A stretch of DNA of 43,942 bases, from positions 86,285-130,226 of the forward strand of contig PAPB01000035.1 of the NCBI GenBank assembly GCA_002708715.1, written 5' to 3'. The number at the start of each line of letters is the position of its first letter. Positions within the stretch are counted from its first letter, which is position 1. A model generated the notes under the pieces. It was not told where the DNA came from. It did not search any database and worked only from the letters and a program-made list of their open reading frames with translations. This DNA is from Fidelibacterota bacterium. Its GTDB lineage: Bacteria > Fidelibacterota > Marinisomatia > Marinisomatales > UBA1611. The position numbers and the translations under genes were made by a program. Positions 33,368 through 43,930 of this stretch are shown one piece after another.

Positions 33368-34654
33368 TTATATCGAATATACTTTTGTTTTATTATCTCT
33401 GCCTTTAAGATTGATATCACCTTGATATTTTGCCTTATCATATAAAGCTTTAGTAAGTGAAGTATAGATCTCATGTGAAAAAAGTATATTTGTTGAAAAC
33501 TCTTTATTTCTTTGCTCTAATCTGGAAGCTACATTAACAGTGTCACCTATAGTACTATATTGTAACATTCTATCACTGCCTATATTTCCTGCAATTACAC
33601 TACCAGTATGAATACCTGTGCGAGCTGTAATTCCATCAATTCCATGATTTTTCCAATATCTTGAGAATTCATTAGTATTCCATTTTTGGTTTAATTCATT
33701 TAATTTTTTTCTCATACCTATTGCACATTGCACTGATAATATTTCATGATCTTCTAGTTTTTGGGGTGCACCAAATACGACCATAACAGAGTCACCAATA
33801 TAATTAATAATTTGTCCATTGTGCTTTTCTATTACATCATGCATAGCTGAGAAATATTCATTTAAGAATTTGACAGCAGTTTCAGGCGACATATGTTCAA
33901 TAATTGTTGAATATGACGTAATATCAGTAAAAGAGATCGAGACCCAGATATTATCTCCTTTAAGATCTCCTTTATTATCTAGTATTTTTTCTGTGAGGCT
34001 TTCTCCAAAATATCGTTTTAGTGTTTCTTGCATGAGTTTTCTATTTGCTTCAAGAGTTTTAGTTTGATAAAAATCTCTTCTAAAATCAATCTCTCGATTT
34101 CTTTTATTGGCTATTAGAAATATCGATGGTAAGAACAATAAATAAGGTAGTTGATCTAAGGAAATATTACCTTGCGAAAGCAATAAAATTACGAATGGAA
34201 TTGAAGTACCTATAACAGCTATTAATCCATTGATTAAATGAAATGGAAAGACAATAAGATATAACATTATCATGATAGGTAAAACGCCAGCACCAACAGG
34301 GAATTGTCCATTAGAAAAGTAGTAGGTCCATGCTCCACAATTCATGAATCCAATTGCAGTAATTAAAAAATATTCTTGATGATATTTTCTTTTATTTTCA
34401 TTTGATGAAAAAAGGAATACAAGGAGAAGAATGATTGAAAAGAGATGGTAGGATAAGTAATATATATTTTTTCCTACACCTTGAACAAAGATATCATCTA
34501 TCCTAATTATAAAACCTAAAGGCGTATCAACATATAGAAGTATTTTTATATTTTTCCAAATTTTATTCCAACGATATTTTAGATATTCTTTTTCTAAAGA
34601 TTTATCCTCAAATCGACAGGAAAATTTGTTGATTCTTATATTTTCTAGATTCAT
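33368..34654 (-). CDS. Membrane class III nucleotide cyclase
   Basis: N-terminal membrane part (about 45-180, five or six helices) followed by a class III cyclase domain (about 225-428) that makes a cyclic nucleotide. Metal-binding Asp residues are D244 ('SFTDITSYS') and D288 ('YIGDSVMVVFG'), 44 apart as in adenylate cyclases. Transition-state residues N374 and R378 are in 'DTVNVASRLE'. The two purine-selecting positions are unusual: N284 replaces the Lys of adenylate cyclases (Glu in guanylate cyclases) and S367 sits where Thr or Asp is normal. ATP versus GTP preference is therefore open. The upstream region holds a terminator and a structured element. The signal sensed by the membrane part is unknown. 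Confidence 0.85.
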   Translation of the reverse strand: MNLENIRINKFSCRFEDKSLEKEYLKYRWNKIWKNIKILLYVDTPLGFIIRIDDIFVQGVGKNIYYLSYHLFSIILLLVFLFSSNENKRKYHQEYFLITAIGFMNCGAWTYYFSNGQFPVGAGVLPIMIMLYLIVFPFHLINGLIAVIGTSIPFVILLLSQGNISLDQLPYLLFLPSIFLIANKRNREIDFRRDFYQTKTLEANRKLMQETLKRYFGESLTEKILDNKGDLKGDNIWVSISFTDITSYSTIIEHMSPETAVKFLNEYFSAMHDVIEKHNGQIINYIGDSVMVVFGAPQKLEDHEILSVQCAIGMRKKLNELNQKWNTNEFSRYWKNHGIDGITARTGIHTGSVIAGNIGSDRMLQYSTIGDTVNVASRLEQRNKEFSTNILFSHEIYTSLTKALYDKAKYQGDINLKGRDNKTKVYSI

Positions 34655-34703
34655 TTATTAAATATTGGCTTGGTAAAATAGCATTTAACTATCATCCTAC
34701 AAA

Positions 34704-34728
34704 CAAAAAATCCCAGAAATTTAGGATT
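34704..34728 (-). terminator. Intrinsic terminator upstream of cyclase gene
   Basis: Minus strand: AATCC, a loop of about 10 bases, GGATT, then a run of Ts and TTTGTTTG. It lies 50 bases before the cyclase ATG and could end a short transcript that contains the structured element at 34839-34900, or act as an attenuator for the cyclase. Confidence 0.5.
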
Positions 34729-34838
34729 ATAAAAAGAATCTAATTATGTGATGAGTATCAATGCTTTAGTCTTTTATAATGTTTAATCTTGAATGATGCT
34801 TGGTCTTGCAGTATAGAAGACTTGTGATAAGGTAGAGT

Positions 34839-34900
34839 GGGTCAATCCTCACCTCAAACATCCTTTTTTAGACCTCGGTTGTCTACTCTACCTTTAATCA
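34839..34900 (-). ncRNA. Candidate structured RNA of unknown class
   Basis: On the minus strand this 62-nt segment opens with GGTAGAGT and closes with the exact complement ACTCTACC, giving a perfect 8-bp stem. Inside, AGAC/GTCT can form a small hairpin near the 5' side and GGT/ACC one near the 3' side, so a three-way junction is possible. Directly after it, AAGTCTTCTATACTGCAAGAC gives another 5-bp hairpin. The intergenic region 34655-35016 holds no ORF. I do not recognise it as 6S RNA, SRP RNA, tmRNA, RNase P RNA or a known riboswitch. The strand is inferred from the co-oriented genes and downstream terminator. Confidence 0.35.
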
Positions 34901-34983
34901 TATATTTTAAAAATCATATAAAAAAATAAAAATTAATAATTACTAATGTTGAAATCCCGATACATATCAACTAAAACTTTGAA

Positions 34984-35018
34984 AATGTTATGATAAATGT
35001 TGTAGAAAGGATAACATT
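34984..35018 (-). terminator. Possible hairpin terminator after YHYH gene
   Basis: Minus strand AATGTTAT and ATAACATT form an 8-bp stem around a 19-base loop, beginning inside the stop codon of the YHYH gene and followed by TTTTC. The stem is AT-rich and the T-tract short, so this is weak. Confidence 0.3.
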
Positions 35019-36753
35019 ATTTAATGAGAATCATTTTTTTAGTTTTTCTAAACTTTCTAGTATCTATGCTATAGAGGTAAAGACCTGCTGATACTGGTTG
35101 ACCTTGATTATTGGTAGCATTCCATTGTACGGATTTGTAGCCAGTATTTTGGACTTCACTGATAAGATTACTAATCACATTCCCAAGCATATCATATATT
35201 GTAATTTTTACAAAAATATCTTCTGGGAGATTATATTGTAATGTAGTTACAGGATTGAATGGGTTTGGATAATTTTGATGTAAGAAATATTGTATAGGTA
35301 CATTTTCATAATTTGATCCAAGAATAGCATTATTAACATATATATAATTTTGAAAATTTTGATTTTCTAAATCATTTGGGCCAAGATTTGTAATCGTACC
35401 AAAATTATCTTCTAAAATAATTCTAATATTCCAAGTCCCTTCAGTTGACCCCATTGGTATTTCTATTGAACTAGCTATAGTGGAAGACATAACATTTTCC
35501 GCGAATAAACCTGAACTTTCTAGCATCTCACCACCATTTATAGGTCCTCCATTAATTATTAACCTTAATATATAACTGGATAAATAATCATCGCTGTCTT
35601 CGGCATTTAATGTAAAACCAATATTAATTGATTCCTGACTAGTGTTTACAGTATCACCATAAATTGAAAAATTGATGAGCGAAGGACCAGTGTTTCCTGT
35701 AGCACAATCAATAGGGCAATTATCTTCATTTTCAGGACCGCCACAAATACCATCTCCGCAACATGGATTACCTGGTGGGACATCCTCGCAATCAGGTACA
35801 CCTCCTCCTCCATTAGCAATCTCGCCTTTTAGGCACCTGGTAAAATATGGGAATTCATCTGTGACCATATAATAATATATACCATCAGGGAATTCAGGGG
35901 TCACACCTATTCTACCATTACATTCATCTAAATCTCCATAGCCTGCTTCAAATTCAAAATCTTGAGTGAAAGCTCCCATTGGAATAGGAATATTTGGATA
36001 TGTTATTCCTTGACCGCCTCCTAATGCTGTTAAAGTATCAGGGCGTCCTTCATCAGGGGTGTCTTTTAATTTCCAACTAGGCTGTAAGGATATGAGTTCA
36101 CTTGTAGAATCATTTGGATTTGAATAACCATATCTTGCATACACAGGAAATCCATCCGAAGCCCATCCAACAAGAGTCATACCTTGATTGTCTCCTAAAA
36201 AATCTATTAACAACTCTGGCATTCCATGGTAATGATATTCTCCCGAAGGTTGCACATGAGCGTGATTCATATCATCGCCAAAATTAAATGTTTCATGACC
36301 TAGAGCTTCTATATTCCAATTTCCTTGTCCTTGTGCAAGACTACATTCTCCTTCATCGTTACATCTTCCTGCTGTAGCAGGATCAAATTTTACACTATTG
36401 ATTGCGTAAGCGATAGCTCCAGCTGGACCACCTACAGGCTCACCATTTTCTGATACTATTGTTGGGCAAATAGTAAAAACTTCATTCACAGTTTGTTCGC
36501 TTATAGTATTAGGGTTATGTGCATTAGGGAAAGTTCCTACTTCATGGTTTGGAATACCATTTCCAGAAAGTATCCTATTTATATCATCAGATGTCCATGA
36601 GTAGATGCTATATGCATTAACTGATTCATCGTCATTATAGATTTCTTCATTGATATTATCTAAAACACCAATTGTGGAATATTCATTATCTTCACACTGG
36701 CCAAATATTGAATTCAATAATGTTGCAATAAAAAATATAAATATTAATTTCAT
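35017..36753 (-). CDS. YHYH-domain secreted protein with T9SS sorting domain
   Basis: Exported protein with a signal peptide (about 1-18, ending 'SIFGQ') and a YHYH domain named for its motif, here Y173-H176 in 'GEYHYHG'. The domain also has 'HAHVQPSG' and 'GWASDGFPVYARYG' as in other YHYH proteins. A short Cys-rich stretch (about 325-350, 'PCCGDGICGGPENEDNCP') and an immunoglobulin-like beta domain follow. The C-terminal T9SS domain starts at YPNPFNP (Y495) and ends 'KKMILIK'. The function of YHYH proteins is not known; the His-rich motif suggests metal binding. A surface location is inferred from the sorting domain. Confidence 0.87.
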   Translation of the reverse strand: MKLIFIFFIATLLNSIFGQCEDNEYSTIGVLDNINEEIYNDDESVNAYSIYSWTSDDINRILSGNGIPNHEVGTFPNAHNPNTISEQTVNEVFTICPTIVSENGEPVGGPAGAIAYAINSVKFDPATAGRCNDEGECSLAQGQGNWNIEALGHETFNFGDDMNHAHVQPSGEYHYHGMPELLIDFLGDNQGMTLVGWASDGFPVYARYGYSNPNDSTSELISLQPSWKLKDTPDEGRPDTLTALGGGQGITYPNIPIPMGAFTQDFEFEAGYGDLDECNGRIGVTPEFPDGIYYYMVTDEFPYFTRCLKGEIANGGGGVPDCEDVPPGNPCCGDGICGGPENEDNCPIDCATGNTGPSLINFSIYGDTVNTSQESINIGFTLNAEDSDDYLSSYILRLIINGGPINGGEMLESSGLFAENVMSSTIASSIEIPMGSTEGTWNIRIILEDNFGTITNLGPNDLENQNFQNYIYVNNAILGSNYENVPIQYFLHQNYPNPFNPVTTLQYNLPEDIFVKITIYDMLGNVISNLISEVQNTGYKSVQWNATNNQGQPVSAGLYLYSIDTRKFRKTKKMILIK

Positions 36754-37166: not shown

Positions 37167-37231
37167 AAGTAATATGATTATTTAGAAATTTATATTAATT
37201 CTTTATGAAATTTACCCATCATCGCCCAAAC

Positions 37232-37257
37232 AAAAAAACCTATGAATGCTGGAGTTT
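37232..37257 (-). terminator. Terminator-like palindrome after esterase gene
   Basis: Minus strand: AACT, a central 'CCAGCATTCAT', AGGTT, then seven Ts and GTTTG, 26 bases past the esterase stop. The arms are degenerate (four pairs), but position, T-tract and the shared ATTC centre fit a terminator of the family also found at 43903-43918. Confidence 0.5.
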
Positions 37258-43868: not shown

Positions 43869-43875
43869 ATCTAAA

Positions 43876-43930
43876 TCTACCCATCCTCCCACAAACAAAA
43901 AACTCCACGAATGTGAGGCTTGATGGTTAT
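43876..43930 (-). repeat. Dispersed terminator-palindrome repeat copy
   Basis: Minus-strand palindrome CCTCAC-ATTC-GTGGAG (43903-43918) is followed by TTTTTTGTTTG and then GGGAGGATGGGTAGA. The copy at 37212-37260 shares the ATTC loop, T-tract, GTTTG and a close match of the GATGGGTA flank. The 34685-34728 copy shares the tail more weakly. It presumably terminates a minus-strand gene lying beyond the window edge. Confidence 0.5.

Follow-up and report, generated by a model that had tools for sequence, protein, structure and literature searches.

The region directly upstream of a class III nucleotide cyclase gene (Guanylate_cyc, PF00211; positions 33368..34654, minus strand) in the stretch of DNA analyzed here (43,942 nucleotides, called the window) raises the question of whether it holds a cis-acting element that controls the cyclase or a free-standing RNA. 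The original prediction had noted a perfect 8-bp stem, a second hairpin and a minus-strand terminator, and proposed either a small RNA of about 200 nt or a riboswitch or attenuator of the cyclase, naming compensatory changes in the stem and conservation in relatives as the points to check. The region encodes a small regulatory RNA that had not been described before and that is probably activated by a protein of the cAMP-receptor type. As judged from sequence comparison, the conserved unit (window ~34747-34905, plus strand), which comprises an operator, a promoter, a 5' hairpin and a long stem with a large loop, is a new small RNA family pointing away from the cyclase gene.

Copies of the element in related genomes

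Single-sequence folding energy was only mildly unusual (plus strand, z = -1.98, with 7/200 shuffles as good; minus strand, z = -0.86), so the case for a real RNA rests on comparison. When 61 related genomes were searched with the DNA of the region, conserved copies were found within its genus and its family, and the window genome itself contained a second one. Identity to the region was 77% over ~160 nt in one relative (G001) and 75% in another (G002), and the BLAST alignments with both started at the operator (34747) and stopped at the stem (34901-34905). Two covariance models were then used, R1 built from seven sequences and R2, a stem-only model, from 14, with promoter sequence in neither. 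R1 recovered its seven training sequences with E = 1e-26 to 2e-31 and found further copies, independent new matches reaching down to E = 2e-14, and R2 added one more. The conservation to be looked for in relatives was thereby established, with 15 good copies in 9/33 genomes of one family of Ca. Marinimicrobia; the models found no good copies elsewhere among 245 genomes of the phylum. Weak model matches (L047, L077 and L078) were set aside because the operator was absent, and L050 looks like a decayed copy.

The window genome carries three copies, the one in the window and those at G000:C39:61471-61589 and C39:60357-60475. The latter two (L055 3358-3476 and 4472-4590) lie ~1 kb apart in the same orientation, and their loops have diverged (CTTCTTACCTC; CTCCTTAGATACCTCCG). 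Rfam 15 gave no match in the window at gathering score, and a permissive scan yielded a spurious snoRNA as its sole match (E = 0.27, far under its cut-off), in agreement with the original prediction, in which no known RNA class was recognised.

GTDB contigs were also scanned with an exact pattern of 18 fixed bases, for which ~7 chance matches are expected in 257 Gb, both strands. Five Marinimicrobia-type contigs matched, together with one of Spirochaetes and one of Lentisphaerae; the exact pattern was not found in viral contigs. The Lentisphaerae match overlaps an ORF. On the Spirochaetes contig (L024 4390-4495, minus strand) the exact hairpin GGTCTTACAGTATAGAAGAC stands between two plausible genes, and after it comes a terminator-like stem whose loop reads TTTCACCTCCTTTT; this match may be due to chance or may be a distant relative.

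Structure, strand and neighbouring genes

The main stem pairs 34829-34842 with 34881-34894 on the plus strand and includes the predicted 8-bp stem, GGTAGAGT (34831-34838)/ACTCTACC (34885-34892), which is exact and encloses 46 bases as claimed. In the 14-sequence alignment 93.3% of the main-stem cells were paired and both sides had changed in 7/14 pairs, which supplied the compensatory changes; none of 500 shuffles reached as high a covariation, and sliding the stem by 1-3 columns made it collapse. Extra outer pairs, TGAT/ATCA (34825-34828/34897-34900, plus strand), were read by eye from the alignment. The stem is capped by a large apical loop (34843..34880), mostly single-stranded. On its 5' side the alignment of copies showed a near-invariant segment, TGATGCTTGGTCTTGCAGTATAGAAGACT (34794..34822, plus strand), in which GGTCTT (34802-34807) and AAGACT (34817-34822) form a hairpin with loop GCAGTATAG and 100% of cells paired, including one compensatory pair (C-G to A-U in G000c). 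A small ORF over this segment (MLGLAV-stop) was rejected, since it is broken in G000c while the compensatory change keeps the hairpin. The 5' hairpin was present in 10/15 copies; the five without it (G015, G005b, G020b, G011b and G025b) start with another leader.

The alignment of copies contained 21 G-U wobble pairs when read on the plus strand versus 2 on the minus strand (i.e. 2 A-C cells), and R1 scored 101 bits on the plus strand of the window versus 14 bits on the minus strand. Since the wobbles fall almost only on the plus strand, this is the strand of the RNA, and the wobble excess and the R1 score together indicate that the RNA points away from the cyclase. The GTCTT/AAGAC hairpin of the original prediction does exist (34803-34807/34817-34821), but the element order and strand given for it have to be revised: it forms the 5' hairpin of an RNA read from the plus strand, and the terminator placed after it is another element. 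A minus-strand cis-acting riboswitch or attenuator controlling the cyclase would account for an element lying directly upstream of that gene, with a minus-strand hairpin and T run before its ATG. It is nevertheless extremely improbable, given the strand of the wobbles and of the model score, an operator and -10 geometry that read on the plus strand, copies in relatives without an adjoining cyclase, and a terminator that is part of a dispersed repeat. Riboswitches and cis-attenuators lie on the same strand as the regulated gene, upstream of it and conserved with it, and the element departs from this in both strand and synteny.

The copies adjoin unrelated genes, those beside the G001 and G002 copies showing no synteny with the window, and in most cases the next sizeable gene downstream is convergent; in the window it encodes a secreted YHYH-domain protein with a sorting tail (35017..36753, minus strand). 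A fixed cis target is disfavoured because the neighbours vary and are mostly convergent, which is the setting of a free-standing, trans-acting antisense sRNA. A plus-strand cis-leader, that is, a 5' UTR element of the downstream gene, would suit G023 and G005, where a same-strand gene follows at ~240 nt, and G025 and G000b, where short same-strand ORFs lie within ~80-140 nt, but the window copy and most of the others face a convergent gene, and the downstream genes are mutually unrelated; we regard it as highly unlikely. The free-standing RNA of the original prediction, conserved, covarying and set among varying neighbours, was thus retained; its length, as predicted from the extent of the conserved unit, would be ~110-125 nt instead of ~200 nt. 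The 3' end is uncertain, a clean U run being absent after the main stem.

In G023, G005, G011 and G020 a gene for a cNMP-binding-domain protein lies ~1-1.5 kb downstream of the RNA (L058 4838-5320, L059 4809-5291, L065 5352-5837 and L066 3222-3707). The protein is small and without HTH, and its gene adjoins that of an AI-2E-family transporter. The RNA at this locus has the 5' hairpin in some cases and lacks it in others, the two kinds sharing one syntenic place in the four genomes. The cyclase and cNMP-binding neighbours are suggestive of cyclic-nucleotide signalling, neither being general.

CRP-type operator, apical loop and proposed mode of action

A CRP-type operator, TGTGATGAGTATCAAT (TGTGA-N6-TCA; 34747..34762, plus strand), precedes the RNA. 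This pattern, with a background frequency of ~1e-4 per position in these sequences, was present upstream in 15/15 copies, eight of them found by models without promoter sequence; because those models held none, the operator is an independent confirmation of the copies. Where the 5' hairpin is present (ten copies), the operator centre lies 39-40 nt before a conserved TGATG; of the copies without it, four have the operator 62-64 nt before CTTGGG, and in the fifth, G025b, it is farther from the stem. The 39-40-nt spacing would fit a CRP promoter of class II, in which the site is centred at -41.5, with the start one or two bases further in; the predicted transcription start is at ~34794-34797. From the same spacing TAATCT (34784..34789, plus strand; TAATAT, TATTAT or similar in relatives) is the probable -10 element.

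One clear CRP-like protein is encoded in the genome (G000:C28, 227 aa). It is the sole clear HTH_Crp_2 match, aligns with E. coli CAP structures (E about 2e-23) and has the recognition helix SRETVSR. Helices of this type read TGTGA in the CRP family. A promoter-proximal CRP-type operator and a CRP-type regulator encoded in the genome are features of CRP-regulated sRNAs. CRP binding at the operator, the ligand and the sign of the effect are predictions from sequence, and CRP could act as a repressor instead of an activator.

The apical loop holds a Shine-Dalgarno-complementary segment, TCACCTC (34849-34855) in the window, mostly CUUACCUC in relatives and CCUCCUU or CUCCUU in others, and the CUUACCUC motif is retained where the stem around it changes. 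In 14/14 loops there was a pentamer of the anti-Shine-Dalgarno core CACCTCCTTT (mean 5.3 and maximum 12 in 1000 dinucleotide shuffles), a comparison uncorrected for relatedness that overstates significance because the loop sequences are related. The 16S tail GGATCACCTCCTTT was confirmed in a family member (G019) and was not found in the window genome's own assembly, which is incomplete. A search of seven genomes for the loop complement (GAGGTAAG-N0-12-ATG) revealed no excess over a reversed-pattern control and no recurrent target gene; one recurrent GAGGTAAG match was rejected as a target since it looks like conserved sequence other than a ribosome-binding site. Hfq (PF17209) was not detected in the window genome, which is 88.9% complete. 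Since neither a GAGGTAAG excess, a recurrent target nor Hfq was found, we infer the pairing step, and the loop may pair with Shine-Dalgarno sequences of mRNAs, a plausible reading that we hold with some reserve.

Spot 42 is a free-standing sRNA gene under a CRP site and is repressed by CRP. The present RNA resembles it in being a free-standing sRNA gene under a CRP site and differs from it in the class II activating position predicted here and in having no Rfam match to Spot 42. RsaE-type and alphaproteobacterial CCUCCUCCC-type sRNAs have unpaired C-rich anti-Shine-Dalgarno loops and occur in several copies per genome. The new RNA shares with them a C-rich loop, predicted to be unpaired and to match ribosome-binding sites, and the several copies per genome, but it is found in another phylum, has no detected similarity to them and carries an extra invariant 5' hairpin in ten copies. 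CyaR (RyeE), an enterobacterial sRNA, is CRP-dependent and uses a conserved seed to act at Shine-Dalgarno sequences, that of ompX among them (PMC11795201). The likeness lies in an sRNA gene under a CRP site and in the presumed Shine-Dalgarno-directed action; unlike CyaR, which depends on Hfq, the RNA occurs in a genome where that protein was not found, and it has no sequence or Rfam relationship to CyaR and a different architecture, with the Shine-Dalgarno-complementary segment in the loop that caps a long 3' stem.

Computed support covers conservation, covarying structure, strand, the fixed place of the operator and multi-copy free-standing occurrence. We propose that the RNA would be transcribed on the plus strand from ~34795 to ~34905 or slightly beyond, with the CRP-type site centred at ~-41.5. 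It would be switched on by an activator of the CRP family, for which the SRETVSR protein at G000:C28, presumably in its cyclic-nucleotide-bound form, is the most likely candidate. The RNA would fold into a short 5' hairpin, whose loop is invariant, and a long stem displaying the C-rich loop, which would pair with purine-rich ribosome-binding sites of target mRNAs and so lower translation. That the element is a CRP-activated, stand-alone, trans-acting sRNA of ~110-125 nt lowering translation at ribosome-binding sites is the reading we consider likely. Alternatively, a CRP-controlled stand-alone RNA could act as a protein sponge, binding an RNA-binding regulator or RNase through the 5' hairpin loop or the C-rich loop. 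The nearly invariant hairpin loop GCAGTATAGA, the several copies per genome and the finding of neither Hfq nor a recurrent mRNA target would agree with a sponge, but five copies without this hairpin still keep the loop motif CUUACCUC, and we judge it unlikely.

The RNA family is well supported and absent from Rfam, and offers a testable regulator and a testable seed. A literature search found no sRNA work for this marine phylum (Ca. Marinimicrobia), and the family would provide an entry point to cyclic-nucleotide regulation, and possibly to Hfq-independent RNA regulation, in these bacteria. More speculatively, this may be a new multi-copy sRNA family found, in one genus, inside cassette-like gene islands of Ca. 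Marinimicrobia and acting as a cAMP-CRP-induced, Hfq-free mimic of the 16S anti-Shine-Dalgarno tail. If true, such a mimic would couple signalling by cyclic nucleotides to a broad control of translation, in a phylum that is uncultured and whose RNA biology is little covered in the literature searched.

The dispersed repeat upstream of the cyclase gene

The minus-strand terminator of the original prediction was found as an AATCC...GGATT hairpin with a T run (~34702-34730), ahead of the cyclase ATG at 34654, but it belongs to a dispersed repeat separate from the RNA, which explains why a terminator was seen there. The whole element (34683..34730, minus strand) consists of this hairpin with its T run and, after them, the dispersed motif TTTTTGTTTGTAGGATGATAGTTAAAT, that is, a terminator and a promoter-like repeat upstream of the cyclase. 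The repeat TTTTTGTTTGTRGGATGATRGNTARAT, usually placed after a CCCCACATTCGTGGGG-type hairpin, has 16 copies in the window genome and is present in 26/33 family genomes, with up to 31 copies in one relative; a reversed control of the motif gave zero matches. Within the window the repeat (CCCCACATTCGTGGGG hairpin plus TTTTTTGTTTGTGGGATGATGGGTAGATTT) lies at 34683-34709, 37210-37236 and 43875-43901, all on the minus strand, and it occurs also in L158, L159 and L160.

On several contigs the repeat forms same-orientation arrays, with about one copy per one or two small, functionally varied genes, and an ATG stands exactly 6 nt after TAGAT in 29/63 copies. The repeat resembles a terminator joined to a promoter and placed between cassettes, from which leaderless mRNAs may arise, and the arrays are possibly an undescribed integron-like or cassette array. 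Tyrosine recombinase genes (Phage_integrase, Phage_int_SAM_5) were found <1.5 kb from an RNA copy (L056 5206-6318 and L057 5223-6143, both plus strand); their contigs, G001:C106 and G002:C1, also bear cassette-like arrays, and these recombinases are candidates for mobilizing the cassettes or the RNA.
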